The notes beneath the pieces were generated by a model. The model did no database searches and had not been told where the DNA came from. It saw only the letters and a program-made list of their open reading frames with translations. From positions 1 through 32,959 of the forward strand of contig JAIRJU010000122.1 in the NCBI GenBank assembly GCA_031260485.1: a stretch of DNA of 32,959 bases. Direction: 5' to 3'. Positions within the stretch are counted from its first letter, which is position 1. Each line of letters opens with the position of its first letter. The translations under genes and the position numbers were made by a program. Below, in pieces: positions 466 to 31,557 of this stretch. Source of the DNA: Pseudomonadales bacterium. GTDB taxonomy: Bacteria > Pseudomonadota > Gammaproteobacteria > Pseudomonadales > Pseudohongiellaceae.

Positions 466-3400
466 ATGATCAAAGCCAAGGGGAGCCAAGCAGGGTGCAT
501 AAAGGCAAGAGCAGCGCTTCCTGTTGCGGGCTTGAGCAGCGGCGGCAGGCTGGGAAGCTGGGCAATGGCGGGGTGTCTGGTGGCGGTATCGTGCCTGGCG
601 TTTGCGCAGAACGAAGGAACGTTCCATTTCGATATTCCACGGCAGTCAGTGCAAAAAGCGCTGCTGGACTTGGCGCAGCAGGCGCAACTGCCGCTGCTGT
701 TGCCCATGAATGCCTTCAGCGATTTGCAGGCCAATGCGCTTGATGGCGAGTATTCGGTGCCCGAAGCGCTGGCGCGTTTGTTGGAAGGAACCCGCGTAAA
801 AGCGCGGCTCGATCAATCAGGGCAGTTGATCGTCGAAAAAATTGCCGATAGCGGCGTTAACAACAACCTTACAGGGGAAGCACGCATGTCTGAAAACAAA
901 ACCAGAAAAAATTTGTTGGCCGCTGCCATTGCGGGCCTGTTTTCAGGCGCGGCGGAACACGCGCTGGCGCAGGAGGCGGCATCCGCCCAAGGGCTCGAAG
1001 AAATTACCGTTACCGGCAGCCGCATCCGCAACACCTCGGGCTTCGAGACGCCCACGCCTGTCACCTCGATCACGCCCTCTGAATTGAAGAGTTTCGAGCC
1101 GGGTAACACCGTGTCGCAGCAGTTGAATGCGCTGCCGCAATTTTTCAACAACCGCACCTCGCAGCAATCGGCTGATGGCAGCCGCTTCAGTCCGGCGGCC
1201 AACACCTACACCTTTCTCAACTTGCGCAGCCTCGGCGGCAACAGAACGCTGGTGTTACTCGATGGGCATCGTTTGCAACCGTCGGATAAAGCCGGCACGG
1301 TGAATCCTGATTTACTGCCCAATGCCTTGATGCGCAGTGTCGATGTTGTCACTGGCGGCGCGTCGGCGGCTTACGGCGCGGATGCCGTCGGCGGCGTGGT
1401 GAACTTTATTTTGGACCGGGAGTTCGAGGGGCTCAAACTGGAAGCCAGCACCGGCCAGCACGAAGGCGGCGTGGGCCAGCAGTGGCAGGTTGGTGTGGCG
1501 GCGGGCTTGTCTTTCATGGCGGGGCGCCTGCATGTCGTCGGTTCTTTCGACAACTTGCAGATTGATCAGATTCGCGGCGATCGCAGCAGCATCAGCAGCT
1601 TTCGCCGTTGGGGTTGGGTGCGCAATCCAGATTGGACGCCTACTGCGCCGCTCGGCGTGCCGCAGCGGCTGACCTTTCCCGATGTCGTTTCGACGCTATC
1701 TTCACCCACCGGCCTGATTACCGCACCGGGCACGCCGCTCAACCGGATGCAGTTTTCGCTGGATGGCAGCGGCATCGTGCCCTTCGTCAACGGCAGTGTC
1801 ACCTCGCTGCCGGGTCAGCAAGGCGGCACCAATTCCACCACCGGCGGCCCTGAAGCGGCGCTTGCCTACGACACTTTCGACAACAGCCCTTCGGCGTCGG
1901 CGGTAGTGGTGCGCTCCAGCTTTCTCGGGGTGAAGTACGAATTCTCCGAGCGCTTGAGTTTCACGCTGGATGGCCGCGCGGGCCGCACCGAGTCGAATAA
2001 CCATTCGGTACGCGGCGGTTTTGAACTGGAATCGCCCTGGAACATGTTGATCGCGCCCGACAATGCCTTTCTGCCTGCGCAGGTGCGGGATTTGATGCTC
2101 GCCAACAACATCAGGGAACTGAATGTCAGCAAACTGGGTTCCTGGGTCGATCGGCCTGAGGTGGGTTCCAATACCATTACCGAGAATGTCTTGACGCAAT
2201 GGCAGGTGAGTACTGGCTTCGAGTACAAACTTCCGGGTGTCGAGTGGACCTTGGAAGGGCATTATCAAACAGGCGAATCGAAGCGTAACCCTGAAGGCAT
2301 CAATGTGATTCGAGAAGATCGCCTGTACCTCGCCATGGATGCGGTGCGCGATCCTGGCAGCGGAAAAATCGTATGCCGTGTGCAACTCTACAACCCCACG
2401 GTTGAACAATTGCGCGCCGCGGTGGCGGGCCGCAGCTCTGGCATTCCGCTCGATCCCACCAAACCGCCGGGCGTGCCGGGCAATACCAAGCCTTTGGAAT
2501 CACCGATTGGTCTTGATAACACGATTGCCGCGTGCGTGCCGCTCAATCCCTTGGGCAGCGGCAACATGAGCCGGGAAGCGCTTGATTATGTGACAAGCTA
2601 CAAAGGCGCCGATGGCATCGTGACGCAGAATTTCGCCGAACTGCTTTTGAGCGGCGAGTTATACCCCCTGCCGGCAGGGATGCTGAGCTTCGCCGCAGGG
2701 CTGACTTGGCGAGAACAATCGTTCTACGATTTTCCGGTGACGAACAGCGGCATCGGTGTCGATGGCAAGATTGTCACTACCGCCGATCTCGGCCCACCCA
2801 TCAACGCGCCTGAGTTGGGCATTCGCGGCATTCCTGCCGGTATCGAAACCGGCAGCCCGAACCTGCATCTCTTTTCCACGGTGCCCAACATCGCTGGGGA
2901 CACCAGTGTCACGGAATGGTTCGGTGAATTGCAGGTGCCCGTGTGGGAATGGCGCGGCGGCCAGCGCATCGATACCAACCTGGCATTTCGGCGCTCGAAT
3001 TACGTGCGCAGCGGTGTCTCCGATAGCTGGAAGATCGGCATCGAGTCGCGCTTGCATCAGGATTGGCGCCTGCGGCTGACGCGCTCGCGCGACGTGCGCG
3101 AACCGACATTTCAGGAGCTGTTCGATGCCCAAGGCGGCGGTTCAGCGGTAAATGACCCTTTCTTCAATAACGCCAGCATTCAGACGAATACGCTATCGGG
3201 CGGCGATCCCAACCTGGCGCCTGAAATCGGCGATACCTCGACCGCGGGGCTTATCTGGCAGCCGAGTTTCATGACGGCGCTGGAAGGCTTGCAGGTGGCG
3301 CTCGATTGGTACGACATCAAAATCGCGGATCGTGTCGATACGCTTACCGCGCAACGCATCCTCGACGAATGCTACCGTAACAGCCTCTTTTGCGATCGCA

Positions 3401-3981
3401 TCACGCGCGATTCTGCCACACAGCAATTGGTGAACGTGCGTCAATCCTACATGAACCTCAGCCAGGCGGCGGTGTCGGGTACTGATCTTGAGATTTCGTG
3501 GCGACATGCGGTAAGTTTCTTCGGCGGCGCGGCGGAAAACATCGGCCTGCGCTGGTTGGGTGCGTATTTGGACGAATCATCCACCACGCCGTTCGGCGGT
3601 ACGCCGCGTAATATTGCGGGGCAGGTGGGCACGCCGCGCTATACGCACGTGCTCACCGCCAACTACGGTATCGGTGCGTATTCGTTCCAACTGCAAAACC
3701 GTTTTGTTGATTCCACCCTGCTCAATGTCGATTGGGTCGAGGGGCGTGATGTGGACATCAACTCGGTGGCATCCATGAGCTGGTGGAATGCGAGTGTTGG
3801 CTACCGTGGCGAGACGCGCGGCGGCGCGGCCTGGAGCGTGAATCTCAACATACAGAACCTGTTGAACGACGAGCCGCCAGTGGTGCCGAATTTCAGCACG
3901 CGCGGCGGCAGCCAGAGCTTTCCGGCGTCGTATGATGTGTTTGGGCGGCGCTATAACCTGAGTCTCAATTACAGTTTTTGA
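466..3981 (+). CDS. TonB-dependent receptor with N-terminal STN (FecA-type signalling) domain
   Basis: Outer-membrane beta-barrel receptor for energised uptake, 1171 aa, long for the family. Visible parts in order: a signal peptide (about 1-48, ending CLAFAQ), an STN domain (about 52-124, FHFDIPRQSVQKALLDLA), a second signal-peptide-like stretch (141-169, MSENKTRKNLL...HALAQ), a TonB box-like LEEITVTGSR (177-186), a plug with VDVVTGGASAAYGADAVGGVVNF, and a barrel ending in the terminal Phe of LSLNYSF. The STN domain fits signalling to the FecR protein encoded just upstream. The second hydrophobic segment is odd: in ordinary FecA-type receptors the STN domain leads straight into the TonB box. 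Either an STN protein became fused in frame to a complete receptor, or translation also starts at 886. The substrate cannot be read from sequence; the downstream MFS transporter hints at an aromatic acid. Confidence 0.9.
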   Translation: MIKAKGSQAGCIKARAALPVAGLSSGGRLGSWAMAGCLVAVSCLAFAQNEGTFHFDIPRQSVQKALLDLAQQAQLPLLLPMNAFSDLQANALDGEYSVPEALARLLEGTRVKARLDQSGQLIVEKIADSGVNNNLTGEARMSENKTRKNLLAAAIAGLFSGAAEHALAQEAASAQGLEEITVTGSRIRNTSGFETPTPVTSITPSELKSFEPGNTVSQQLNALPQFFNNRTSQQSADGSRFSPAANTYTFLNLRSLGGNRTLVLLDGHRLQPSDKAGTVNPDLLPNALMRSVDVVTGGASAAYGADAVGGVVNFILDREFEGLKLEASTGQHEGGVGQQWQVGVAAGLSFMAGRLHVVGSFDNLQIDQIRGDRSSISSFRRWGWVRNPDWTPTAPLGVPQRLTFPDVVSTLSSPTGLITAPGTPLNRMQFSLDGSGIVPFVNGSVTSLPGQQGGTNSTTGGPEAALAYDTFDNSPSASAVVVRSSFLGVKYEFSERLSFTLDGRAGRTESNNHSVRGGFELESPWNMLIAPDNAFLPAQVRDLMLANNIRELNVSKLGSWVDRPEVGSNTITENVLTQWQVSTGFEYKLPGVEWTLEGHYQTGESKRNPEGINVIREDRLYLAMDAVRDPGSGKIVCRVQLYNPTVEQLRAAVAGRSSGIPLDPTKPPGVPGNTKPLESPIGLDNTIAACVPLNPLGSGNMSREALDYVTSYKGADGIVTQNFAELLLSGELYPLPAGMLSFAAGLTWREQSFYDFPVTNSGIGVDGKIVTTADLGPPINAPELGIRGIPAGIETGSPNLHLFSTVPNIAGDTSVTEWFGELQVPVWEWRGGQRIDTNLAFRRSNYVRSGVSDSWKIGIESRLHQDWRLRLTRSRDVREPTFQELFDAQGGGSAVNDPFFNNASIQTNTLSGGDPNLAPEIGDTSTAGLIWQPSFMTALEGLQVALDWYDIKIADRVDTLTAQRILDECYRNSLFCDRITRDSATQQLVNVRQSYMNLSQAAVSGTDLEISWRHAVSFFGGAAENIGLRWLGAYLDESSTTPFGGTPRNIAGQVGTPRYTHVLTANYGIGAYSFQLQNRFVDSTLLNVDWVEGRDVDINSVASMSWWNASVGYRGETRGGAAWSVNLNIQNLLNDEPPVVPNFSTRGGSQSFPASYDVFGRRYNLSLNYSF
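872..888 (+). promoter_or_regulatory. Possible internal ribosome binding site and start codon inside the receptor gene
   Basis: AGGGGAAG lies 6 bases before an in-frame ATG at 886 whose product would begin with a normal signal peptide (MSENKTRKNLL, Ala-rich core, ALAQ cleavage site) and then a TonB box and plug. Starting here gives a 1031-aa receptor without the STN domain. Whether it is used cannot be told from sequence. Confidence 0.45.
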
Positions 3982-7307: not shown

Positions 7308-7751
7308 TTACGCCGCCATTCTCCAATCATGCCCTGAATGCTCTAGCTGCAAATCCAGCATATTGGAACGGGTGTCCAGTTCTGCGAGGCGATCCACCAA
7401 TGTTTTTATGGCGCCGCGTTCGTGTATCCATTCAAGGTAGAGCGCGCGAATGATTAGCTCGTTACTTCTGGGGGCTGGTACTTCTCCACGCTCCCAGCGC
7501 CCAACGGTTTGCTCTTCTACCCCTAAATAGCTCCCGAGTTTTTTCTGCGACAGGTTCAGCTCTATGCGCAGAAACCTTATTTCTCTCCCGGTGAGTGGAC
7601 GCCGGGCGTTGGCCAATAATTGGCCGATGACTTTATGGAGCCCGTCCGCGTCTTCTATGGCAATGGTTTCACCATATTCTGAGTGTTGCGCTATGACGTA
7701 TCCATTGGTGAGGTATACGTTATCTAGCCCACTTTCGGTGTAGTGATACAT
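7308..7751 (-). CDS. XRE-type HTH antitoxin (partner of a DUF4258-type toxin)
   Basis: 147 aa. The N-terminal part begins YHYTESGLDNVYLTNGY, a pattern seen in HTH antitoxins paired with DUF4258 or MqsR-like genes. A helix-turn-helix spans about 55-92 (GREIRFLRIELNLSQKKLGSYLGVEEQTVGRWERGE). The rest is helical. AGGAG 9 bases before the ATG overlaps the stop codon of the upstream toxin remnant, 12 bases away, showing an operon in which the toxin gene comes first. It is intact, while the partner has two stop codons, so it may now act alone, binding the palindrome at 8086. It converges on the MFS gene with a 5-base gap. Confidence 0.8.
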   Translation of the reverse strand: MYHYTESGLDNVYLTNGYVIAQHSEYGETIAIEDADGLHKVIGQLLANARRPLTGREIRFLRIELNLSQKKLGSYLGVEEQTVGRWERGEVPAPRSNELIIRALYLEWIHERGAIKTLVDRLAELDTRSNMLDLQLEHSGHDWRMAA

Positions 7752-8132: not shown

Positions 8133-8570
8133 TTACACCCGAAACGGATTGACGATGCGCAGATCGCCGATGGTTTGCCCATGCTGGAGATCTTCTGAAA
8201 GCAGCACGGCGCAGGACGCCTTTTGCGCCATGCGGATGATGAGGCTGTCCCAGAAAGAGAACTGGTAGAGGCGGTGCAGTTCGATGGCGCGCACGATGTC
8301 GCGGTGCTCTATGCTGAGAATTTCCAGCGCGTGAAACAATTCCACTTTGCGCTGTACGGTGGCGATCGGTACGCCGAGTTTGCGTGAGGCGGCCACGGTG
8401 TATTCCTGCAACACCTGGGTGGAGAGCACGAGCGTGCCGCTGTTCCAGCCGTCTTCCAATAAGTGCAGGGCTTGCGTCTGTTTGGCTGGCGCCGCGCCGT
8501 CATCCGTATAAAGCAGGATGTTGGTGTCGAGAAAGCAGCGCTCCTTTGCTGTGTTGTCACTCCTTTTCAT
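8133..8570 (-). CDS. PIN-domain toxin (VapC-like ribonuclease)
   Basis: 145 aa. PIN domains are Mg-dependent RNases; the four acidic residues expected are present: D15 (FLDTNILLY), E56 (VLQEYT), D108 (SFWDSLI) and D127 (LLSEDLQHG). The length is normal. The ATG at 8570 lies 6 bases after the stop of the upstream RHH gene, a typical antitoxin-toxin layout. There is no sign of damage. The target RNA is unknown; most VapC toxins cut initiator tRNA or the sarcin-ricin loop. Confidence 0.88.
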   Translation of the reverse strand: MKRSDNTAKERCFLDTNILLYTDDGAAPAKQTQALHLLEDGWNSGTLVLSTQVLQEYTVAASRKLGVPIATVQRKVELFHALEILSIEHRDIVRAIELHRLYQFSFWDSLIIRMAQKASCAVLLSEDLQHGQTIGDLRIVNPFRV

Positions 8571-9001: not shown

Positions 9002-11701
<2,700 letters not shown>

Positions 11702-11738
11702 CGGAAATGGATGGACTCGCCGCTGTCGCTGAAGCAAG

Positions 11739-11801
11739 TCAAATGCGGAGCACCAAATCCGTATATTTCTCCAGGTATCCATCAGCAGTCAGCAGTCGCA
11801 T
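11739..11801 (-). pseudogene. Collapsed VapC-like toxin remnant, 20 codons
   Basis: The stop of the Phd gene overlaps an ATG (TGATG at 11803-11799), the standard Phd-VapC junction. The following frame reads MRLLTADGYLEKYTDLVLRI and stops. MRLL matches the start of many PIN toxins (MRLLLDTH), while the rest resembles the last strand and helix (typically 'LVTAD..L..Y...VL'). An internal deletion joining the two ends, perhaps at a CTGCTG repeat, would explain it. All but one of the PIN acidic residues are gone, so no toxin is made. Confidence 0.5.
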
Positions 11802-12037
11802 CAGTTTCCCTCGAACGCCGCGATGACATCATCGGGGAGCGGTGCATCAAAATCATCGGCAATTCGCACTTTGCCCTTGAGTCCGCCGAAGCGCCGGACA
11901 ACTTTCTTGCGCTCAATGGGCACCAGCCGCGCCGTCGGAACGCCTGCTTTGGCGATCACGATTTCTTCACCGCTCGCAACGGCATCGACGAGCCGCGAAA
12001 GCTGTGCCTTTGCTTCGTGAATGTTCATGGTTTGCAT
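11801..12037 (-). CDS. Phd/YefM-family antitoxin
   Basis: 78 aa from the ATG at 12037 (MQTMNIHEAK), which has AGGA upstream; the ORF track start 39 bases earlier is not supported. It has the family pattern NIHEAKAQLSRLVDAVASGEEIVIAKAGVPTARLVPI, a DNA-binding N-terminal half, and the C-terminal DDFDAPLPDDVIAAFEG that folds on VapC-type toxins. Its toxin gene, which should follow with overlapping codons, is reduced to about 20 codons. The gene lies opposite to, and between, the SNF2 and SWIM genes. Confidence 0.88.
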   Translation of the reverse strand: MQTMNIHEAKAQLSRLVDAVASGEEIVIAKAGVPTARLVPIERKKVVRRFGGLKGKVRIADDFDAPLPDDVIAAFEGN

Positions 12038-12074
12038 GGCGGTTCCTGCGGCGGAGGGGGATTCAAGTGAGCCC

Positions 12075-12102
12075 ATATTAGCAAGCGCAGAGCGGGTTTC
12101 AA
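12075..12102 (-). promoter_or_regulatory. Likely promoter of the phd gene
   Basis: On the minus strand TTGAAA (12102-12097), 16 bases, TAATAT (12080-12075), about 37 bases before the ATG at 12037. Confidence 0.45.
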
Positions 12103-12217
12103 CCGGATGCCTCCCCCCTCATGTGTGGTAGTTTGGCACGATGAGAAAGTTCCTCACTCATCTGATGATCAGCGGACGCTAACGGCTGGCGGCGAAATCA
12201 ACCACAAAGGAGCAAGC

Positions 12218-13033
12218 ATGAGTTATTGGGAGTATCCCGCCTACGTTCCGGTAGCGCAGCGGCGCGCCAATGCGCAAAAACACGTCGCCAAGCTGAAGAA
12301 ACAAGGGCATAGCGTTGCGCCGATCGTCATCGAAGGGCGCAAGATCGCCAAGAGCTTCTGGGGCAAAGCCTGGTGCGACAACCTGGAGCACTACGCCGAT
12401 TTCGCCAACCGGCTGCCGCGCGGGCGCACGTATGTTCAGAATGGTTCGGTGATTGACCTGCAACTGACGCGCGGCAAGGTGCAGGCGCTGGTCAGCGGTT
12501 CAGCGATTTACACGGTGGAGATCACGATGGCCGTTGCGCCTCCTGCGCGCTGGAAAGCGATCTGCGCGGACTGCGCTGGCTCGATCGGCTCCCTGGTCGA
12601 ATTGCTGCAAGGCGCGCTGTCCAAACACGTGATGGAACGGGTCTGCCGCCCGGCCGATGGGCTGTTTCCGGCGCCCCGGGAAATCAAGATGGCGTGCTCC
12701 TGCCCCGATGGCGCGCACCTGTGCAAGCACGTCGCGGCTGCGCTCTATGGCGTCGGCGCGCGGCTCGATCATGCGCCGGACCTGCTGTTCACCTTGCGCG
12801 GCGTGGATCGCAGCGATCTGGTGTGTGTCAGTACCGACTTGCCGATCACTGCGGTGGCCGCAGGCAGCGAGCGCGTGCTGGCCGATGCGGACATGGCGGC
12901 TCTGTTTGGTGTGGACATGGTGCTTGGTGTGGGCATCGAGATGGCGCCAACAGCAGCGAAAAAAGCGCGCACACCCAAACCCGCGAGCAAGGCGAAGCGC
13001 ACCGTAGCCACCAAGGCGGGCAAGCAGCCGTAA
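12218..13033 (+). CDS. SWIM zinc-finger protein, partner of SNF2 helicase
   Basis: 271 aa from ATG 12218, chosen because AAGGAG sits 5 bases upstream; the longer ORF from 12107 starts in non-coding sequence. It begins SYWEYPAYVPVAQRRANAQ and has a KSFWGKAWCDNLE block and the LPRGRTYVQNGSV motif typical of the bacterial SWIM family found next to SNF2 helicases. The zinc finger CxCx6CxH is C160, C162, C169, H171 (CSCPDGAHLCKH). The C-terminus is a Lys/Ala-rich tail (KKARTPKPASKAKR...) likely to bind nucleic acid. The role is unknown; it probably loads or directs the SNF2 motor on DNA. Confidence 0.88.
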   Translation: MSYWEYPAYVPVAQRRANAQKHVAKLKKQGHSVAPIVIEGRKIAKSFWGKAWCDNLEHYADFANRLPRGRTYVQNGSVIDLQLTRGKVQALVSGSAIYTVEITMAVAPPARWKAICADCAGSIGSLVELLQGALSKHVMERVCRPADGLFPAPREIKMACSCPDGAHLCKHVAAALYGVGARLDHAPDLLFTLRGVDRSDLVCVSTDLPITAVAAGSERVLADADMAALFGVDMVLGVGIEMAPTAAKKARTPKPASKAKRTVATKAGKQP

Positions 13034-13227
13034 TGCGCGCCGTCTTGGTGTGCTGGCGCCTCCAGAGTTGTGCGCAAGCGGACAGTGCCTTGTCCCTTTT
13101 CGGACATTTGCCTGGCGTTGCGCGCGAGGCGTTATAGCTAGGTGATTGATTTTTCAATACTTCTCTATATGGAACAAAATTTGCTTATCCTCAACGAATA
13201 ACAATCATGCCTTGGAGAATGCCCATC

Positions 13228-15699
13228 ATGCTACGCGATCATCTACGCTCATTCTGGCGCGGCGTGGTGAACAACAAACTCACCACGGGTATCAATGTGG
13301 CTGGCCTTGCTCTGGGCTTGGCGGTGTTTTTTGCTTTGACGTTCTACGTGCAGCGGGAGTTTTCCTACGATACGCAGTGGCGGGATGCAGAGAGGATTTA
13401 TGTGATTGCCGGGCAGCAGGAGATGCTTAGTGGTAATTCAGTACCCAGGGTGCCTCTCTCATTTTATGTGCTTGGAACCCATTTGCTGAGCCGTTATCCC
13501 GATGCTTTCGAGGCGTATGCCAGAAATGTAAGAAGCCAGGGCGCGGTTGTCGTCGATGAAAAAGAATATGCCAATAAAATGCTGAATTATGTCGAACCTG
13601 GTTTTCTCAATCTGCTGCAACTGGACACTGTGGAAGGCTCTTTGCAAGCAGTATTCACCGACCCACATTCCATTGCCATCAGCGCCCAAGAAGCTGAAAT
13701 CATGTTTGGCCAACAATCGCCATTGGGGCGCATACTGACTTTTAATTCGCAACAAAACAGTCCAGCGGACTATGTCATAAAAGCGGTCTATCGTGTTCCC
13801 GCGCCAAGCTCGTTGGAATTTATGAATTTTCTGGCGCTGTTAGATTCTGTTGCATCGCCGTTAAAGAATATCGACTTGGATAGCTGGAGTCGCAATTCAC
13901 CCGCGTTTGCTGACAATTATCTCAAACTTAATCCTGGATTTTCTGCCCGCCAGTTGGAAGCAGAACTGCGTGCTTTTATGGATGAAAATCACTACATGGA
14001 TGCCGGCGACAACAAAACGCGCTTTGTTTTCATGCCGCTGCGGGATGTACATTTGATCCCTTCGAGCTTTAATCCAGGCGGGGGTACTGACCGCCTGCGT
14101 ATTCTTGTCGCTATTGGTGTGATGGTGTTGCTGATCAGCGGGTGTAACTTCGTGATGCTGGGTACCTTGCGTTCGGTTGATCGCATGAGAGAGGTGGGTA
14201 TTCGCAAGGCTGTGGGGAGCGAAACGCGGCAGTTGTTGCGCCAATGCTTATTCGATGTGTTTGTGCAAGCGCTTACGGCAGCGTTATTGGCGGTCGTGCT
14301 ATTGGAGCTTGGTTTGCCCGTGTTGCAGGCACATCTGGGGGTGAACTTGGCGCTGGATTTTTGGCATTGGCGTAACTTGGCACAGTGCTTGGGCATCGTG
14401 GCTGCTTTCACATTATTGAGCGGTTTTTATCCAGCGGTATTGATGTCGCGCGGCCAGCCTGCGGCGCTGCTGCGCAATAGCAGCGGAGCGATGGTATCGA
14501 GCGGCACTATGCTGCGCAGAGTTTTGGTGGGAGTTCAGTTCGCGGTTGTCATTGGACTGCTGCTGGCTAGCGCGGTGGTACGGCAGCAAATTGAATACAC
14601 CCGTAATCGCGATCGTGGTTATAGTTTGGAAAATATCATGGGCGTGCGCATCAACGACCGTAGTGTCATGGCAAAAACCGCGGCTGTGGCAAATGAATTC
14701 AAACAGGTACCAGGTGTGGCGGGCGCTGCGGTGGGTGCCATGTCACCCGGCATGATCATTGGCGCAACGCCTACGCCATTCACGCACGTGGCCGCTGATG
14801 GAAAGTCAATCGAGGCAACACTACAGACCGGCGGCGGCGTGGGGGCTGGCTATTTCGGCGTCATGTCCGTGCCGCTTCTGGCGGGGCGTGAATTTTCCAC
14901 TGACGTGGAAGGTGTGTTGCCGCCAGGTGCGCAGGGAGAGATAAGCAATGTGCTGCTGAATGTTGCGGCGATCCATGCCTTGAATTTTACTACTCCCAAA
15001 GATGCCATTGATGAATTGATTACGGCGGAGCTTGTTGGCAGTGATGGGCAGATAACGCATCAGAGCATGAGAGTAATCGGTGTCGTTGCGGACACACAGT
15101 TTGCGTCCATGATGTTGCCTCCCAGGGCTGAGTATTATCGCTTTACAGCCACCAATATATTTATTCCAATCAAGTTTACGCCAGATGCCGATCAGGCAGC
15201 GGTGCTGAATGATTTACGCGGTGTTTGGCAGCAACTGGTGGGCGATGTGGCGTTCTTGCCGTTGTCGCCGGGTTTGATGGAAATGAATGTATTGGCAGAT
15301 GAAGAATTTGAAGCCCGCATTGTCATCGGCAGCACGCTATTGGCGCTGGTGATTGCGCTCTTGGGTTTGTATGGCCTGGTGGAAGCCACGGTCGCCAAGC
15401 GCGTGAAGGAAATCGGCGTGCGCAAGGTAATGGGCGCGGGCAATACGGCGATTGTTGCGCTGCTGCTGTGGCAATTCTCCAAACCCATTGTCATCGCCAA
15501 TCTCGTGGCCTGGCCGCTGGGATTTTGGGGCATCTCGCGTTGGTTGCAACGTTTTCCGTATCAGCTCGATATGGGTGTGATTGCAGGATCGGCGCTGGCG
15601 GCGAGCATCGTGGCTTTGCTCATCGCGTGGCTCACCATTAGTATGATGGCCACACGCGCGGCGAGCGCGAAGCCCGTGCTGGCCTTGCGGTATGAGTAA
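13228..15699 (+). CDS. MacB/FtsX-type ABC transporter permease, paralogue 1
   Basis: 823 aa from the ATG at 13228 (MLRDHLRSFWRG); GGAGA lies 9 bases upstream, whereas the ATGs at 13207 and 13219 are badly placed. Layout: cytoplasmic start, membrane helix at about 24-44, a large periplasmic MacB-type domain, an FtsX block with helices around 290-430 (RMREVGIRKAVGSE), a further helix near 440-460, a second periplasmic domain, and a C-terminal FtsX block (RVKEIGVRKVMGAG) with the final helices. Such permeases need a separate ATPase and usually export peptides or move lipids or signals across the envelope. No ATPase gene is in the window. A tandem paralogue of exactly the same length starts 29 bases after its stop. 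Confidence 0.88.
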   Translation: MLRDHLRSFWRGVVNNKLTTGINVAGLALGLAVFFALTFYVQREFSYDTQWRDAERIYVIAGQQEMLSGNSVPRVPLSFYVLGTHLLSRYPDAFEAYARNVRSQGAVVVDEKEYANKMLNYVEPGFLNLLQLDTVEGSLQAVFTDPHSIAISAQEAEIMFGQQSPLGRILTFNSQQNSPADYVIKAVYRVPAPSSLEFMNFLALLDSVASPLKNIDLDSWSRNSPAFADNYLKLNPGFSARQLEAELRAFMDENHYMDAGDNKTRFVFMPLRDVHLIPSSFNPGGGTDRLRILVAIGVMVLLISGCNFVMLGTLRSVDRMREVGIRKAVGSETRQLLRQCLFDVFVQALTAALLAVVLLELGLPVLQAHLGVNLALDFWHWRNLAQCLGIVAAFTLLSGFYPAVLMSRGQPAALLRNSSGAMVSSGTMLRRVLVGVQFAVVIGLLLASAVVRQQIEYTRNRDRGYSLENIMGVRINDRSVMAKTAAVANEFKQVPGVAGAAVGAMSPGMIIGATPTPFTHVAADGKSIEATLQTGGGVGAGYFGVMSVPLLAGREFSTDVEGVLPPGAQGEISNVLLNVAAIHALNFTTPKDAIDELITAELVGSDGQITHQSMRVIGVVADTQFASMMLPPRAEYYRFTATNIFIPIKFTPDADQAAVLNDLRGVWQQLVGDVAFLPLSPGLMEMNVLADEEFEARIVIGSTLLALVIALLGLYGLVEATVAKRVKEIGVRKVMGAGNTAIVALLLWQFSKPIVIANLVAWPLGFWGISRWLQRFPYQLDMGVIAGSALAASIVALLIAWLTISMMATRAASAKPVLALRYE

Positions 15700-15728
15700 G
15701 AACAATAATTCTTTGGAGAATGCCTATC

Positions 15729-18200
15729 ATGCTACGCGATCACTTACGTTCATTCTGGCGCGGCGTGGTGAACAACAAACTCACCACGGGTATCAATGTG
15801 GCGGGCCTTGCTCTGGGTTTGGCGGTGTTTTTTGCCTTGACGTTCTACGTGCAGCGGGAGTTTTCCTGGGATGCGCAGTGGCAAGATGCGGATAGGATTT
15901 ACGCGGTTGCCTGGAGCCAGGAGAGCCCCAATGGCCATACCCTGCCGATTGTGGGTTCAGGCCCGCTGCCTTATGTGCTGGGCACCAGTTTGCTTAGCCG
16001 TAATCCTGATGCGTTTGAGCTTTATGCTCGGCGGTTGGGCACTGGGGGTACCTTGGTGGTCGATGGCGAGAATTATTCCAACCGGCAACTGCATTATGTC
16101 GAACCTGCGTTACTGGATTTATTCCCGCTAGAAACACTGGAAGGATCCTTGCAAGCGGTATTTGCTGATCCTCATGCCATCGCCATTAACTCAGCGGTGG
16201 CGACAACGCTGTTCGGGCAACAAACGGCGCTGGGCCGTGTTCTCACCTTCGTTTCTCCATTGAGAGGTGCAGCGGACTATACGATCAAGGCGGTTTACCA
16301 CATTCCTGAACCAAGTATATTGAGCAGCATACAACTCATGACCTTGCTCGATCCCGCCGTGCCGCCATTATTGAATGTGAACCTGGAGGATTGGGGTGCA
16401 CTCCCCGGTTTTGGTGGCGGCTACTATTTCAAGCTGCGTCCAGGCGTTTCCGCGCCTGCGCTCGAAGCGGCGCTGCGCGCCTTCATGGATGAAAATCACT
16501 ATCTGGAATCTGGTGCTGGTATTAAGAGCCGGTTTTCATTTGTGCCGCTGCGGGATATACATTTGATGCCGTCGCTTTTCGATACAGGAAATAACGTCGA
16601 GCGTTTGCGTGTTCTTGCCGCCATTGGTGCCCTGGTATTGGCAATCAGCGGCTGTAACTTCGTGATGCTGGCCACCTTGCGCTCGCTTGATCGGATGCGT
16701 GAAATCGGTATTCGTAAAACCTTGGGTGGCGAAGTAGCGCAATTGCTGTGGCAGTACTTACTCGATGTTTTTCTGCAAACCTTGCTGGCGGCATTGCTGG
16801 CCATCGCGTTATTGGATCTGTGTTTGCCGTGGTTGCGCACCGCGATGAACTTGCCATCGACCTTTGAACTCTGGAGCTGGCATAGGCTCGGCGCAGGTTT
16901 TGCCGTCGTGGTGATTTTTACCTTGTTGAGCGGGCTTTATCCTGCCTTGCTGCTGTTGCGCGGTAAGCCCGCCACGCTCTTGCGCAATAGCGCCAGCGCG
17001 GTGGTGGCGAGCGGTAATGCTTTGCGTAAATTGCTGGTGGGAATTCAGTTTGCGATAGTCGTCAGCTTGTTGCTGGCGAGCGCGGTAGTGTGGCAGCAGA
17101 TTGACTACACGCGCTCTCATAGTCGTGGTTACAGCGTGGAGCGAGTCGTTGGTTCGCATATCAATACCAAGACTGAGGAGCTGAGCACCAAAGTAGAAAC
17201 GCTAGTGAAAGAACTCAAGCGTGTGCCCGGTGTGGCGGCAGCGGCAGCGGGAGCGCTATCACCGGGAATAATAACGATTAACGCGCCAACCGGTGTTGTG
17301 GCCATAGCGTCTGATGGTGCTATGACCGAAGCGTCGCTGCAAAGCCTCAACGCGGGTGCAGACTATTTCAGCGTGATGTCCGTCCCGATTTTGGCAGGGC
17401 GTGAATTTTCCGACGACATAGACACAGTAACGACGCCCAGCGGCGATGGGCAGAGTGCTCCGGTCAGGAATGTGCTATTGAATGTTGCGGCGGCCCGCGC
17501 GCTGGGCTTTGCGACGCCAGAGGCAGCAGTAGGCAACATTGTTACCGTAAAATTAGCCAAAGGTTCAAACCTGCGCGTGATAGGCGTGGTTGCGGATACG
17601 CAATTTTCCTCGCCACTGCTGCCGCCCGTTGCGCAGTTTTATAGTTTTTCCACGCGAAGTAGCTTTATTGCAGTCAAGTTGAATCCAGGCGTTGAGCGCG
17701 CCGCCGTGACGGAAGATTTGCGGAAAGTTTGGCAGCAAGTGCTGGGGGATGTGCCGTTTGACGTGCAGTCGCCTGAGGAGCTAGGTGACATGCTTCAGCG
17801 TGAAGCGTTCGAAGCGCATATCGTGACCAGCAGCGCCATGCTGGCTTTGGCGATTGCGCTCTTGGGCTTATATGGCCTGGTGGGCGCCACGGTTGCCAAG
17901 CGTGTGAAGGAAATTGGCGTGCGCAAGGTGATGGGCGCGGGCAATACGGCGATCGTTTCCTTGCTGCTGTGGCAATTCTCCAAACCCATTGTCATCGCCA
18001 ATCTCGTGGCCTGGCCGCTGGGGTATTGGGGAATCTCGCGCTGGTTACAGCGTTTTCCGTATCAACTCGACACGGGCGTGATTGCAGGATCGGCACTGGC
18101 GGCGAGCATCGTGGCTTTGCTCATCGCCTGGCTCACCATCAGTGTGATGGCCACGCGCGCGGCGAGTGCGAAGCCGGTGCTGGCGCTGCGTTATGAATGA
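15729..18200 (+). CDS. MacB/FtsX-type ABC transporter permease, paralogue 2
   Basis: 823 aa from ATG 15729 (MLRDHLRSFWRG), with the same GGAGA-to-ATG spacing as its twin. The domain plan is identical. The first 55 or so codons and the last 120 or so codons are nearly identical in DNA to paralogue 1, with mostly silent changes, while the two periplasmic domains and the middle FtsX block differ widely (for example LVVDGENYSNRQLHYVEPALLDLF against VVVDEKEYANKMLNYVEPGFLNLL). It follows its twin closely, so the two are probably co-transcribed and may form a heterodimer. The O-methyltransferase gene starts 6 bases after the stop. Confidence 0.88.
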   Translation: MLRDHLRSFWRGVVNNKLTTGINVAGLALGLAVFFALTFYVQREFSWDAQWQDADRIYAVAWSQESPNGHTLPIVGSGPLPYVLGTSLLSRNPDAFELYARRLGTGGTLVVDGENYSNRQLHYVEPALLDLFPLETLEGSLQAVFADPHAIAINSAVATTLFGQQTALGRVLTFVSPLRGAADYTIKAVYHIPEPSILSSIQLMTLLDPAVPPLLNVNLEDWGALPGFGGGYYFKLRPGVSAPALEAALRAFMDENHYLESGAGIKSRFSFVPLRDIHLMPSLFDTGNNVERLRVLAAIGALVLAISGCNFVMLATLRSLDRMREIGIRKTLGGEVAQLLWQYLLDVFLQTLLAALLAIALLDLCLPWLRTAMNLPSTFELWSWHRLGAGFAVVVIFTLLSGLYPALLLLRGKPATLLRNSASAVVASGNALRKLLVGIQFAIVVSLLLASAVVWQQIDYTRSHSRGYSVERVVGSHINTKTEELSTKVETLVKELKRVPGVAAAAAGALSPGIITINAPTGVVAIASDGAMTEASLQSLNAGADYFSVMSVPILAGREFSDDIDTVTTPSGDGQSAPVRNVLLNVAAARALGFATPEAAVGNIVTVKLAKGSNLRVIGVVADTQFSSPLLPPVAQFYSFSTRSSFIAVKLNPGVERAAVTEDLRKVWQQVLGDVPFDVQSPEELGDMLQREAFEAHIVTSSAMLALAIALLGLYGLVGATVAKRVKEIGVRKVMGAGNTAIVSLLLWQFSKPIVIANLVAWPLGYWGISRWLQRFPYQLDTGVIAGSALAASIVALLIAWLTISVMATRAASAKPVLALRYE

Positions 18201-21632: not shown

Positions 21633-24230
21633 TCAGTCCTCATTCCATCTCTCGCTGGCGCCGCCGAAGGCGTAAGTTATTTTTAGCCAGGCACCGCGCG
21701 GTGGCGCGGGGGTGCGGAACTGTTGGTTTACCAGGGTGTAGAGACTGGTCATGCCTGAGAGGCCGTAGGTTGAATAGGTTTTATTGAACAGGTTGTCGAT
21801 ATTGAGCGCCAGGCGCAGCGCGCCGATCTGGTAGTGAGCGTCGAGATCGACCACGGTATAGCGGGGGAGTTTGCCGTCTGGGTCAGCGTTGTTCTCGTTG
21901 CCATGCGCGTATTGCTCGCCTACCACCATCAGGGTGGCGCCAAGGCGAAAATCGCGGGTGATTGGGTAGGCGGCGTGCAGTTTGAGAGTGCTGGCGGGAA
22001 TGCCGGGGATGCGGTTGCCGCTTTGCACGTTTTCGCCAGTGATCGTGGTGAACGGTGAGCGGTAGCGAGCTTGCACGTAGCCGTAGTTGGCGGCGAGTTC
22101 CAGCCGGTCGAGGTTTGCTTGAGCGCCAAATTCGATGCCACGGCGTTCGGTGTCGCCAACATTGCTGAAGTAGCCATAGGTCGCCGAGGTGGCGATGAAC
22201 TGAATGTCGTTGCGCAGGCGTGAGGTGTAAAGCGCCGCGTTCCAGGAGAGCGGGTTGGCTTGGGAGAGGTGTCCACGTGCGCCGAGTTCGAGGCTGCGGG
22301 CGGTTACTGCCTGGAGATCGGGATCGCCGTTGAAGCCGGTCGGTAAGCTGCAAGGGTGGTTCGGATCGGCGCAGGAGAGTTCGATCGAGGTTGGCGCCCG
22401 CATGGCTTCGCTATACGCGCCAAACAGGCCGGTGGTGCGCGCGAAATTGTAGTTGAAGCCCAGGCGGGGGTTGAAGCGCTGATAGCGGTGTACGCCATCG
22501 AGGCTGTTGGTTTGCGGCCCGGCCACGGCGCCAGAAGGGATGCCGTTGGGCGTGGCGAGCGCGCCCGGCGCGGTATTGGCGTAGCGGTAGGCGTTGAGGT
22601 AATTCGGGTTGTAGTAGGAAACGCCAGTGATGTCATCGGTCCATGAATAGCCGCCATCGTCGTTGAGATATTGCTGGTTCGCGCCTGCCTGATCGAGCGC
22701 GGTGTCGTCGTGGCTGCCGGCCAGGGTGAGGCTGAGTTGCGGTGTCACAGCGAAGGTATCGGTGAAATACACATTGGCTTCCCGCAGTGTCGAGCGCAGT
22801 GCGATCGCGGCCAGGTCGTTGCTGCCGCTGAAGGCGGGAAGGTTGGTGGAGGAAGGCGGCAGGCCGTTGGCGGTGAAGCCGTAGGCGCGATTGGGTGTGA
22901 CCACTGTCTGGTAGTCGAGCAAGCGCGCGAGGAAGGTGTCCTGGCGGTAGGCAATGGTGGAGCGGTTGAACACGAGGCCAAAGGTAAAGGCGTTTTTGTG
23001 GCCCGCGAGCGGCGCGGTAGTAGCCCATTGGAGGGAGGCGCCAGTGGTCTTTTGGCGCGTGGTGGAGGTCACGAGGCTAGCGTTGATGGTGTTGGTCCAG
23101 CGTTCGTAGCCGAGCGCCAGGGCGTCGGCTCCGGTGACGGCATTGAGGGCGCTGCCATTTAGCGTGGCGTTGGCGCAGCGCAGGCCGCTGGCGTTTGTGC
23201 TTAGCGAACCGGTGCTTGGCGAACCATCGCTGTTGAAGCAGCCATCATCCAGATCGGCGTTGCTGTTCATGCTCTGTGTGTTGGATTGGCGGTGATACAC
23301 CTGTGCGGATAACAGGCTGTTGCTGCTCAATTGCTGGCTGGCCTTCAGATTGCCTAGATGCAGGGTATTGGCGATGGCATCGGGCGCCGTGTAGGCGGCT
23401 TTGGGATTGGCTAGCATGTCCATGGGCAGCGCTTGCGTGCCTTGCAACAGGGTGTCGGCCCAGGCGCCGGAGAGTTCGACCAAGCTGCGCTCGTCCGCGC
23501 TATGCCAGCGCGCCTTGCCGAAGGCTTGCTTCACCGTCGAGCCAGAGAAGTAGCGAAAGCCATCCTGCTTGTCATAGTTGCCTGCCAGGAAATAATCGGT
23601 GTGCGTGGCGGCGTCCGCTGTGCCTGCTTCGATGCTGCCTGCCCGGCGTTGGAACGAGCCGCCTAGCGCGCTGAGCGAGAGGCCTGGGTTGTCTTGCCCA
23701 TTGCGGGTGTTGACCAGCAAGGCGCCACCGAGCGTATTGAGGCCAAAAATCGGGTTGGAGCCCGGCTGCACCTGAACGCTGGACAGCGCGTTCATCGGGA
23801 TGAGATCCCAGTTGACGATGGAACCGAAGGGCTCATTGACCCGCACGCCATCGAAATACACCGCCAAGCCGACAGGCGCACCGAGCAGTGAGGTGGCCTG
23901 AAAGCCACGGTAGTTGATGTCATTCTGGTAGGGATTGCCGGTGCCATCGCTCACGCTCACTGCGCCGAGGTTGCTGTTGAGCAGGTTGGCCATGTTGGTG
24001 GCGTTTTGGCGCTGGATGTCGGCGGCGCTCAAGATCTGCGCATTGGTAGGCACTTGCGACAGCGGCGTGCCCGTGGTGTCGAGCAAGGTGGCCACGATCA
24101 CGATTTCATCCAGCGTGGGCGTTAGTGTGGGGCTTGGTTCCTGCGCGTGAACGGTGCTAGCCAGGGCGCTCAGCGCCGAGGCGCTGGCCATGCCAAGGAG
24201 GTGGCGGTGGAGGGGAAGCGGGCGATTCAT
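21633..24230 (-). CDS. TonB-dependent receptor, plain type (no STN domain)
   Basis: 865 aa from the ATG at 24230 (MNRPLPLHRHLLG), with GAGGAAA about 9 bases upstream; the ORF start at 24269 lies before that site. The signal peptide ends at STVHAQ, then a TonB box-like TLDEIVIVAT, a plug with QNDINYRGFQATSLLGAPVGLAVYFDGVRVNEPFG and the PGSNPIFGLNTLGGALLV motif, and a barrel. The end is unusual: the normal aromatic last strand (WLKITYAF) is followed by nine extra residues, GGASERWNED. The plug resembles receptors for siderophore- or cobalamin-type ligands only at family level; the ligand is not known. It is divergent from the next receptor, with 206 bases between the starts. Confidence 0.88.
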   Translation of the reverse strand: MNRPLPLHRHLLGMASASALSALASTVHAQEPSPTLTPTLDEIVIVATLLDTTGTPLSQVPTNAQILSAADIQRQNATNMANLLNSNLGAVSVSDGTGNPYQNDINYRGFQATSLLGAPVGLAVYFDGVRVNEPFGSIVNWDLIPMNALSSVQVQPGSNPIFGLNTLGGALLVNTRNGQDNPGLSLSALGGSFQRRAGSIEAGTADAATHTDYFLAGNYDKQDGFRYFSGSTVKQAFGKARWHSADERSLVELSGAWADTLLQGTQALPMDMLANPKAAYTAPDAIANTLHLGNLKASQQLSSNSLLSAQVYHRQSNTQSMNSNADLDDGCFNSDGSPSTGSLSTNASGLRCANATLNGSALNAVTGADALALGYERWTNTINASLVTSTTRQKTTGASLQWATTAPLAGHKNAFTFGLVFNRSTIAYRQDTFLARLLDYQTVVTPNRAYGFTANGLPPSSTNLPAFSGSNDLAAIALRSTLREANVYFTDTFAVTPQLSLTLAGSHDDTALDQAGANQQYLNDDGGYSWTDDITGVSYYNPNYLNAYRYANTAPGALATPNGIPSGAVAGPQTNSLDGVHRYQRFNPRLGFNYNFARTTGLFGAYSEAMRAPTSIELSCADPNHPCSLPTGFNGDPDLQAVTARSLELGARGHLSQANPLSWNAALYTSRLRNDIQFIATSATYGYFSNVGDTERRGIEFGAQANLDRLELAANYGYVQARYRSPFTTITGENVQSGNRIPGIPASTLKLHAAYPITRDFRLGATLMVVGEQYAHGNENNADPDGKLPRYTVVDLDAHYQIGALRLALNIDNLFNKTYSTYGLSGMTSLYTLVNQQFRTPAPPRGAWLKITYAFGGASERWNED

Positions 24231-24385
24231 TTCAATAAATTTCCTCTGGCAAGCGGACTGCAGGGCCAATCAAGGCGGGCGTAGCCTTACGCAATATTAT
24301 TCTGATTTTCTTTCTCTCCCTACGTTTCTTTACCTGATTCACCGATATGGCGGCATATCGTGCGCGCCTGAAATTGGGTCAGTTG

Positions 24386-24405
24386 CTCTCCCGCTGGCGG
24401 GAGAG
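24386..24405. repeat. Short GC-rich palindrome related to the dispersed elements
   Basis: CTCTCCCGCTGGCGGGAGAG, a 20-base palindrome 31 bases before the receptor start at 24437. Its GCGGGAGAG half is shared with the 26-base elements at 5849 and 26766, so it may be a trimmed copy. It lies in the likely leader of the receptor mRNA. Confidence 0.6.
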
Positions 24406-24436
24406 ACCTGGAAAGAGAACTGGAGAGAGTATTGCA

Positions 24437-26755
24437 ATGTTCAACATGTTTCAAAGGCGGTCTTTGTGGCAAGCGATTCAGCATTCCACGGTGGGGCTGA
24501 TTTATGGCGTAGGTCTGTTGGGGGTGGTGAACGCCGTACACGCGGCTGAGGCTGGCCCTTACATCGACCCGGAAAATCCCGATTTTGGCCGCAAGGTCGA
24601 GGAGTTGATCGTTACGGCCTCGCGCGACAGTGGCCAGCTTCAGCCAGCCACCGCTTCGCTGGCGGCAACCCAGCCACAGTCGATCATCGACCGCAAGGCG
24701 ATCGATCAGTTCATTGCACAGAGCGCCGATTTCACGCAGATCGTCAATTTGTCGCCCAGCATGTCGGGAACCTCGTACAACGGGCCGGGGTTGAGCGAGG
24801 CCAAATCCACGCTGCGCGGCTTCAAGGACGGTGAATACAACATTACCTATGACGGCATCCCCTGGGGCGATGCCAACGGGCCGAGTCACCATTCAACTTC
24901 GTTCTTTCCGGCCTCGACGATAGGCGCAGTGGTGGTCGATCGCGGCCCTGGCGCGGCGGATCAGTTGGGTGTCGCTACCTTTGGCGGCTCGGTCAATCTG
25001 TTTTCGCCCGAAGTGAGTGAAGTTGGCGGCGGCTCGCAGCAATTTACGCTGGGCTCGTGGAACACGCTCATGTCAGTGACCAAGCTCTCGACTGGATCGA
25101 TCAGCCAGCTCAACGGCGCGCGTGCGCTGTTCAATATCCAGGCGCTGAAAACCGACGGCTACCTGACGCATTCGGATTCGACGGCTTACAACCAATTCGT
25201 GCGCGTGGTGGTGCCGATCGTTGACAGTTGGCAGTTGACCTTGCTCGGCACCTGGAATCAATCCAAGGTACAAATCAGCGACAGCAGCGGCGCGACACGC
25301 GAGCAGGTGGAAAAATACGGCAAGAATTTCGCGTTGACCGATGATCCCAAAAACCCGACGTACTGGCGTTACAACATCGTCGAGAAGCATACCTATTTCA
25401 ACTACGCGCGTTTGAGTGGCGATCTGACGCCAAAGACTCACCTCGAAAATACCGTTTATTCGTACTACTACAAGAACGATACGGAGTCGGCGCTCGATCC
25501 GACGGTGCCGGATGCCGACATCGCCAGTTGCAAGGGCTTGCAGATTACTCAGACCCCCGGCGGCTCGCCGGTGGTGAATTGCCATGTGCCTGGCTACACC
25601 AAGCTCAACGTCTATACGATCTACGGCAACATCCTGCACCTTGACCAGGAATTGCCGTTCGGTACCTTGAAAACGGGCCTCTGGCTAGAGCGCGCCGACA
25701 CTGGCCCGCGTGCCCGTTACGACTACGATGCCACCGCGAGCCTTTTTGGCGGGTTGCGTGTGCCTGACTACCGGCAAAAGGCGCTGCCCGGCGTTCCACA
25801 ATATCTTGAGTACGAACAGTACTCCGGCTGGAATCAGTACGAACCGTTCGTCAGTTTGGACTGGCGCGTGACGCCCGCGCTTACTGTCAGCCCTGGTATC
25901 AAATATGTGCATGAGAACCTGCATGTGGAAGCCGAAGTCAACCAGCGATCGCGCGAGCCATTCTTTGATTCTCATACCTTCACCAAGACCTTGTATTTCC
26001 TGACGGCCAACTACCGCATACAAGACAATCTTTCGGCGTATGCGCAGTACGCCACGGGCTTTTTGGTGCCGGATGTCAGTGTGACGCAGCAAAGCAATCC
26101 TGTACTGAGCGGTCTACAACCGCAGGAATCCACCAACTATCAGCTTGGAGTGGTCTATCACGGTTCGCGCGTCAGTTTCGATGGCGACATCTACTACATC
26201 GACTTCACCAACAAATTGCAGACGGTAAGCGTCACCGATCCCGTCACCAAGCAACAGGATACTGTCAACTTCAACCTCGGCGGCGCTGTCTACAAGGGCG
26301 TTGAAGGCCAGGTTACGTTCCAGGCTACCGACAACATCTTCTTGTTTGCCAACGGCTCGTTCAACCCGGCGACGGCGCAAGGTGGCGAAACCACGATCTA
26401 CGGCACGCCCGTGACAATCACCGGCGGCAAGCAGATTGCTGGCGCACCGCGCTCCACGGCGGGCTTTGGCGCCTACTGGCAGGACGCTGCCTTGACGGTG
26501 TCGCTGGTGGATAAATACACCGGCCAGTACTGGTCGGCGGAAGGCGAGCCGGAGGCATCCAAGATCAACGGCTATCACGCCACGGATCTGAGTGCGACGT
26601 ATCGCTGGGATCGCTGGCGCCTGCAAGCCTCGATCTACAACTTGTTTGATAGCCAGCGGCTGACCTCGATCAAGGTCGGCAAGACCGCGCCTGCCGACAT
26701 CCTTTATTTCCAGGCGGAACGTAATTTTCAACTGTCGTTGCGCATGAATTTCTGA
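24437..26755 (+). CDS. TonB-dependent receptor, upstream of acid phosphatase
   Basis: 772 aa from the ATG at 24437 (MFNMFQRRSLWQ), chosen because GGAGAGAG precedes it; the longer ORF start at 24347 runs through the palindrome. The signal peptide ends at AVHAAEAG. A TonB box-like VEELIVTASRD follows, then the plug (STLRGFKDGEYNITYDGIPWGDANGPSHHSTSFFPASTIGAVVVDRGPG) with the usual GVATFGGSVNLFSPEVSE, and a barrel with the terminal Phe (LSLRMNF). The acid phosphatase gene starts 67 bases after its stop, so the imported or surface-captured ligand may be a phosphate ester such as phytate. This is inference from position. There is no STN domain and no nearby sigma/anti-sigma pair. Confidence 0.88.
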   Translation: MFNMFQRRSLWQAIQHSTVGLIYGVGLLGVVNAVHAAEAGPYIDPENPDFGRKVEELIVTASRDSGQLQPATASLAATQPQSIIDRKAIDQFIAQSADFTQIVNLSPSMSGTSYNGPGLSEAKSTLRGFKDGEYNITYDGIPWGDANGPSHHSTSFFPASTIGAVVVDRGPGAADQLGVATFGGSVNLFSPEVSEVGGGSQQFTLGSWNTLMSVTKLSTGSISQLNGARALFNIQALKTDGYLTHSDSTAYNQFVRVVVPIVDSWQLTLLGTWNQSKVQISDSSGATREQVEKYGKNFALTDDPKNPTYWRYNIVEKHTYFNYARLSGDLTPKTHLENTVYSYYYKNDTESALDPTVPDADIASCKGLQITQTPGGSPVVNCHVPGYTKLNVYTIYGNILHLDQELPFGTLKTGLWLERADTGPRARYDYDATASLFGGLRVPDYRQKALPGVPQYLEYEQYSGWNQYEPFVSLDWRVTPALTVSPGIKYVHENLHVEAEVNQRSREPFFDSHTFTKTLYFLTANYRIQDNLSAYAQYATGFLVPDVSVTQQSNPVLSGLQPQESTNYQLGVVYHGSRVSFDGDIYYIDFTNKLQTVSVTDPVTKQQDTVNFNLGGAVYKGVEGQVTFQATDNIFLFANGSFNPATAQGGETTIYGTPVTITGGKQIAGAPRSTAGFGAYWQDAALTVSLVDKYTGQYWSAEGEPEASKINGYHATDLSATYRWDRWRLQASIYNLFDSQRLTSIKVGKTAPADILYFQAERNFQLSLRMNF

Positions 26756-31158: not shown

Positions 31159-31557
31159 TCACCACAGCACATGTAAGCCGGATTTCTGGTATTGCGGAAA
31201 TCCGGCGTCTTTTGAAATCAGCGTGAGCGATTGCTGGATGGCTTGCCAAATGATCATGCGGTCAAAGGGAGCTTTGTGCGCGAGTTTTGGTAGACGGTGG
31301 AAGGTGGCGGCTTCCTGCGCAGTGGGCTGAATGATGTCGATATTCATTTGCGCTGCCAGGGCAGGCATGTCATCGGGCTGACAGTTTTCCAGTTCAATCT
31401 TGCCCAAGGCGTATTTGAGAGAAAGCTCCCAAAATGAAATCGTGCTGATGCACACACGGTTTTCTGCGGAGCGGATAGTGGCTCTCGCCAGCGCGCTCAA
31501 TTTATCCGGCGCAAACACTGTCCACAGGAAGGTATGCGTGTCGAGCAGGCAGTTCAT
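31159..31557 (-). CDS. vapC: PIN-domain toxin VapC
   Basis: 132 aa. All four acidic positions are present: D6 (LLDTHTFLW), E44 (SFWELSLK), D99 (PFDRMII) and D117 (ISKDAGF). The C-terminus LHVLW is the common family end. The start codon overlaps the phd stop by 4 bases (ATGA), as is standard for phd-vapC pairs. It is intact and likely an RNase held by the upstream antitoxin. It ends directly against the aqpZ stop codon. Confidence 0.92.
   Translation of the reverse strand: MNCLLDTHTFLWTVFAPDKLSALARATIRSAENRVCISTISFWELSLKYALGKIELENCQPDDMPALAAQMNIDIIQPTAQEAATFHRLPKLAHKAPFDRMIIWQAIQQSLTLISKDAGFPQYQKSGLHVLW

Follow-up and report, generated by a model that had tools for sequence, protein, structure and literature searches.

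Tandem permease genes and their neighbourhood

The window analysed here, which is a whole contig (C345) of 32,959 bases, belongs to a draft genome that totals 3.14 Mb, is split into 357 contigs and is 88.8% complete. It carries two consecutive genes on the plus strand, A and B, with an intergenic spacing of 29 bases (Table 1). Their products are 62–63% identical in alignment. In both genes, a GGAG motif lies ten bases 5′ of the ATG, and these GGAG-preceded start codons confirmed the coordinates and the 823 codons that a sequence-only reading had given for each. The equal length of the two proteins is a coincidence because nine unrelated indels cancel: gaps of 2, 1, 1, 2 and 3 residues in A and of 1, 1, 6 and 1 residues in B leave nine residues missing on each side.

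Directly upstream of gene A are a gene for an SNF2-type helicase and then one for a SWIM zinc-finger protein (9002–13033). Downstream of gene B, an O-methyltransferase gene is probably co-transcribed with it, and a CmoA-like gene is possibly in the same transcription unit. The O-methyltransferase gene lies outside the homogenised blocks described below. Its relatives in the genus are only 26–29% identical, so it gives no clue to the substrate of the permeases. Elsewhere in these 33 kb are three large genes of the outer-membrane TonB-dependent receptor type (466–3981, 21633–24269 and 24347–26755), two small proteins judged by eye to be PIN-domain toxin-like (8133–8570 and 31159–31557, minus strand), and an antitoxin-like helix-turn-helix gene (7308–7751).

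Table 1. Features of the permease pair and of the genes that follow it (window coordinates).
Feature	Start	End	Strand	Content and basis
Gene A	13228	15699	+	823-aa duplicated MacB/FtsX-type ABC permease; ORF, Pfam, 8-helix model (pLDDT 84.8)
5′ homogenised block in A	13200	13366	+	Leader with ribosome site, N-terminal helix, TM1 (codons 1–46); coding part 96% identity
Diverged middle of A	13367	15350	+	Periplasmic domain 1, FtsX domain 1 (TM2–4), TM5, periplasmic domain 2; 62% DNA identity
3′ homogenised block in A	15351	15699	+	TM6–8, second major and C-terminal minor coupling helix; 90% identity
Gene B	15729	18200	+	823-aa tandem paralogue of A; ORF, Pfam, alignment
5′ homogenised block in B	15701	15867	+	Leader, N-terminal helix, TM1; offset 2501 from A
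Diverged middle of B	15868	17851	+	Periplasmic domain 1, FtsX domain 1 (TM2–4), TM5, periplasmic domain 2
3′ homogenised block in B	17852	18200	+	TM6–8, second major and C-terminal minor coupling helix
O-methyltransferase gene	18207	19286	+	Pfam Methyltransf_2, 8.4e-33; begins 6 bases past B
CmoA-like SAM-dependent methyltransferase gene	19340	20065	+	Pfam; TIGR00740 168 bits, below the cut-off of 193

Each permease contains two MacB_PCD and two FtsX stretches above the Pfam gathering scores, the domain content of the MacB/FtsX (type VII) class, and profile matches in the PDB were to MacB, LolC/LolE/LolF, YtrF and FtsX chains. An AlphaFold model built from 25 family members reached a mean pLDDT of 84.8; a prediction from four sequences (pLDDT 47) was discarded. 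The model has an N-terminal helix (2–15), eight membrane helices (17–45, 285–318, 333–370, 381–408, 421–460, 690–724, 739–773 and 782–812, of which the first is TM1 and the fifth TM5), two coupling helices (320–329 and 726–734) and a short C-terminal one (816–821). The structural marks of type VII systems, namely stalked membrane helices, a periplasmic alpha/beta domain and coupling helices, are thus present, and Foldseek returned MacB, LolE and YbbAP. The two proteins are therefore duplicated MacB/FtsX permeases with eight membrane helices, resembling the ADOP family.

ADOP (TIGR03434) was the best NCBIfam match and has the same build of about 800 amino acids with two MacB_PCD and two FtsX parts, but A and B scored 221 and 229 bits against a cut-off of 622.3, aligning only from about residue 223, and for that reason we did not file them in it. 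The sole full-length match among solved folds was the permease chain of E. coli YbbAP (PDB 9ge6, 9ge7; about 800 residues, Foldseek E 1.4e-20), whose function is not transferable at 13–14% identity and a TM-score of about 0.5. MacB itself (PDB 5lil, 5gko, 5nik) shares the fold of the half-molecule and the coupling helices (PMC5985334), but it has four membrane helices and a fused ATPase, whereas A and B have eight and no ATPase. The darobactin exporter permease DarB (NF038008) was only weakly and partially similar (71 bits against a cut-off of 700), and no darobactin genes were seen in the window.

Alike ends and diverged middles

The best two-changepoint model of the A/B alignment put the first break in A at 13367 (2-lnL interval 13363–13401) and the second at 15351 (15341–15356), with a DNA identity of 0.957 at the start, 0.616 in the middle and 0.905 at the end. 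Its log-likelihood was 101 units above that of a single-rate model. When identity was taken in blocks of 20 codons, it was 0.90–0.97 over the first 56 codons, 0.43–0.80 in the middle, and 0.83–0.98 over the last 120 or so codons. The longest identical runs measured 53 nt in the 5′ block and 61 nt in the 3′ block, while in 5000 shuffles of the sites no run ever exceeded 36. Within the 3′ block the identity was patchy (p 0.03 for the 61-nt run). The leaders with the ribosome site match at 24 of 28 positions (13200–13227 and 15701–15728), and the 3′ block ends at the stop codon; the outer limits of the homogenised blocks are therefore the ends of the repeat unit, the 28-base leader on one side and the stop codon on the other.

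The near-identical ends and diverged middles noticed in the sequence-only reading are thus real, the first ~140–170 and the last ~350 bases being alike. That reading had placed the strong differences in the periplasmic domains; these have indeed diverged, but the middle also holds FtsX domain 1 (TM2–4) and TM5.

Silent sites follow the same division. By the Nei-Gojobori method, dS between A and B was 0.19 in codons 1–50, 1.1–2.7 in the middle and 0.44 in codons 701–823. Four-fold degenerate sites were identical at 85% and 78% in the two ends, against 32–38% in the middle (Fisher p 2e-6 and 3e-9). For comparison with other genomes of the genus we used the two nearest homologues outside this genome, C from genome G005 (56–57% identical to A) and D from genome G002 (57–58%), of which D stops at codon 733 and so has little of the 3′ block. 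The dS of C and D to A over these end segments was 0.6–1.6.

We also counted identical codons only where both genes encode the same amino acid. In the ends, A and B shared 118 of 153 such codons (77%), compared with 64 of 121 for A and C (p 3e-5) and 60 of 116 for B and C (p 2e-5), that is, 52–53% for either copy with C. In the middle, the fractions were 151 of 332 for A and B (45%), 145 of 324 for A and C (45%; p 0.88) and 43% for B and C. The same test with D gave p 0.047 for A and 0.012 for B, weaker because D is without most of the 3′ block; the start block alone was below significance against D (four-fold sites, p 0.27). Since D is cut at codon 733, the test of the 3′ block rests on one comparison, that with C. 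In the middle, therefore, A is no closer to B than to a homologue from another genome of the genus, while in the ends it is clearly closer. A delimited tract in which paralogues resemble each other at silent sites more than they resemble homologues between genomes is a classical signature of concerted evolution.

In all three genes, C included, the ends have a higher GC3 than the middle. Codon bias thus contributes some identity to the ends of A and B, but it is insufficient alone because the ends of C, with the same raised GC3, nevertheless differ from them in codons.

We compared four further tandem arrays: a triplet on contig C264 of the same genome, G005:C158, G022:C7 and G020:C23; three others (L083, L086 and L087) were left out. 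In none of these four was homogenisation of the ends at silent sites found, silent identity being 0.3–0.5 nearly everywhere; only in protein did identity rise towards the C-terminal end, with a maximum of 0.61 in one pair of the triplet. Across the paralogues, conservation of the protein is highest in the C-terminal domain (38–50% amino acid identity against 18–27% in the periplasmic parts), whose silent sites are near saturation. The case that the sequence-only reading had named against itself, that of many paralogues with only their ends fixed, is borne out at the protein level, in the C-terminal domain, but not at silent sites. Among the genes compared, silent-site homogenisation of the ends is specific to the A/B pair.

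Searches of 11 genomes of the genus, 137 of the family, 392 of the order and 369 of the class found no second genome with the A/B pair and no further orthologous pair, only C and D; two scans of GTDB genome contigs likewise gave no homologues of the pair beyond these two. The A/B clade is patchy within the genus, present in three of the 11 genomes, each of them an incomplete draft, and missing from the seven that are at least 90% complete, which hints at loss or horizontal gain. A repeat as the cause of the contig end in D at codon 733 was considered and found unsupported; that draft has ~410 contigs and chance breaks are common.

Origin of the mosaic

From these comparisons, the ends of A and B have probably been homogenised by recombination between the copies, through gene conversion or unequal crossing-over, while the middles are old and diverged. 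The sequence-only reading had offered gene conversion at the ends as one cause, and this gains support from the low dS found in the ends only and in this pair only, relative both to the genus homologues and to the other arrays. A and B are copies, in tandem, of an ABC permease gene of the MacB/FtsX type, and their middles have diverged to saturation at silent sites, about as far as each stands from the homologues in the genus. The leader with codons 1–46, and codons 709–823, would then have been homogenised between the copies once or more. Gene conversion, or duplication and deletion via unequal crossing-over, could have been the route, and a single genome would show the same footprint for either. 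The ends, being best conserved in protein, may have retained enough DNA similarity for homologous recombination, while the middle may have dropped below the threshold of similarity, and chimeric ends would be harmless because the ends presumably have an identical role in A and B.

The second cause offered by that reading, selection for divergence of the periplasmic domains, found no support. Positive selection could have pushed the periplasmic parts apart, and protein identity does drop to 51–56% in the middle, both periplasmic domains included. The pairwise dN/dS of the middle, however, is about 0.13–0.29 on saturated dS, and its dN between A and B (0.33–0.41) is not above that between either copy and D (0.28–0.47) or between A and C (0.32–0.50). 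The divergence of the two middles equals that of either from D, and we regard diversifying selection as very unlikely. It is slightly more improbable again that the ends are alike solely through protein function, by strong purifying selection together with codon bias. The conservation of the C-terminal domain in all comparisons and the raised GC3 of the ends speak for it, and protein constraint does contribute. But the excess of identical silent codons in the ends, with no difference in the middle, the homogenised leader and the lack of the silent-site pattern in other tandem arrays make it insufficient; since low dS is confined to the ends of this pair and the leader is included, recombination is the best reading. 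Mixing of end reads of A and B in the assembly, conceivable in a draft of so many contigs, is extremely unlikely: the differences, at 4–10% of positions, occur all along both blocks, keep the frame and are mostly silent, whereas mixed or collapsed reads would leave identical copies or breaks.

A different order of events would also give sharp breakpoints at both sides. The pair could be a recent, uniform duplication in which one middle was later swapped with that of a diverged homologue, either a third copy of the array that has since been lost or a gene gained horizontally. As this would have it, A, B and D are equally far from one another in the middle, silent divergence of the 5′ and 3′ blocks is not clearly different (p 0.06 by codons and 0.57 by four-fold sites), and larger tandem arrays exist in the genome, such as the three copies on C264. 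The donor, however, was found neither in this genome nor in the 137 genomes of the family, and the unequal dS of the blocks and the patchy 3′ block fit several tracts of different age better, though this is weak. The order in which the middles of A, B and D branch would tell conversion of the ends from replacement of a middle, and would place the duplication before or after the split from D, but AU tests on the trees reject no pairing. We consider replacement unlikely, and the patchiness and the unequal silent divergence (p 0.06) lean weakly towards repeated conversion.

A possible shared ATPase and known parallels

The window has no gene for an ATPase or an adaptor, as the sequence-only reading had noted for the ATPase; unlinked ATPases of the MacB type are encoded elsewhere in the genome. 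One lies directly upstream of the three paralogous permeases on C264 (2608–10112); it is a fragment cut by the contig end and 90% identical to an ATPase of G002. These three permeases are about 25–35% identical to one another in the middle, with identity rising to as much as about 60% towards the C-terminus. In G002, contig C379 (296–8720) carries genes for an HlyD-type adaptor, an ABC ATPase and a permease in that order, beside divergently oriented genes for a histidine kinase and a sigma-54 regulator of the NtrC type, probably a complete export locus of the same permease family. A and B are each probably the permease of a type VII (mechanotransmission) ABC system driven by an unlinked ATPase, and their periplasmic domains probably differ in substrate or partner. 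A putative ATPase common to both is plausible.

The major contact of MacB with its ATPase is made by the helix that joins TM2 to TM3 and the minor one by the C-terminal helix, and movement is passed on to the periplasmic domain (PMC5985334). In the model of A and B, the homogenised ends contain the N-terminal helix, TM1, TM6–8, the second major coupling helix (726–734) and the minor one (816–821). Selection might keep the ends alike so that both permeases dock interchangeably on the same unlinked ATPase while their periplasmic parts diversify. We hold this only tentatively and think it rather doubtful; the coupling helix of the first half (320–329) lies in the diverged middle, outside the homogenised ends, which counts against a pure docking reading. 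If it were true, recombination would maintain a shared drive module, and the concerted evolution of this ABC transporter would be modular. In any case, the pair is a clear and statistically supported case of partial homogenisation by recombination in an ABC permease family, and protein trees of such tandem permeases should be read with caution as they combine two histories.

This kind of evolution is already known and the mechanism is not new; the new part is the ABC permease family. A genome-wide survey of concerted evolution in prokaryotes covered full-length cases only and named partial ones as future work (PMC6053082). Alike ends with a diverged middle are known from babA and babB of Helicobacter pylori (PMC4552749). 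The babA, babB and babC genes, unrelated to A and B, encode outer-membrane adhesins at separate loci and undergo phase variation, whereas A and B are a tandem pair of inner-membrane permeases with no repeats seen. Mammalian TLR1 and TLR6 are likewise tandem paralogues with one part converted and another diverged; gene conversion keeps their transmembrane and signalling part alike (PMC2077338). Conversion there was demonstrated in nine species, while the A/B pair is known from one genome.
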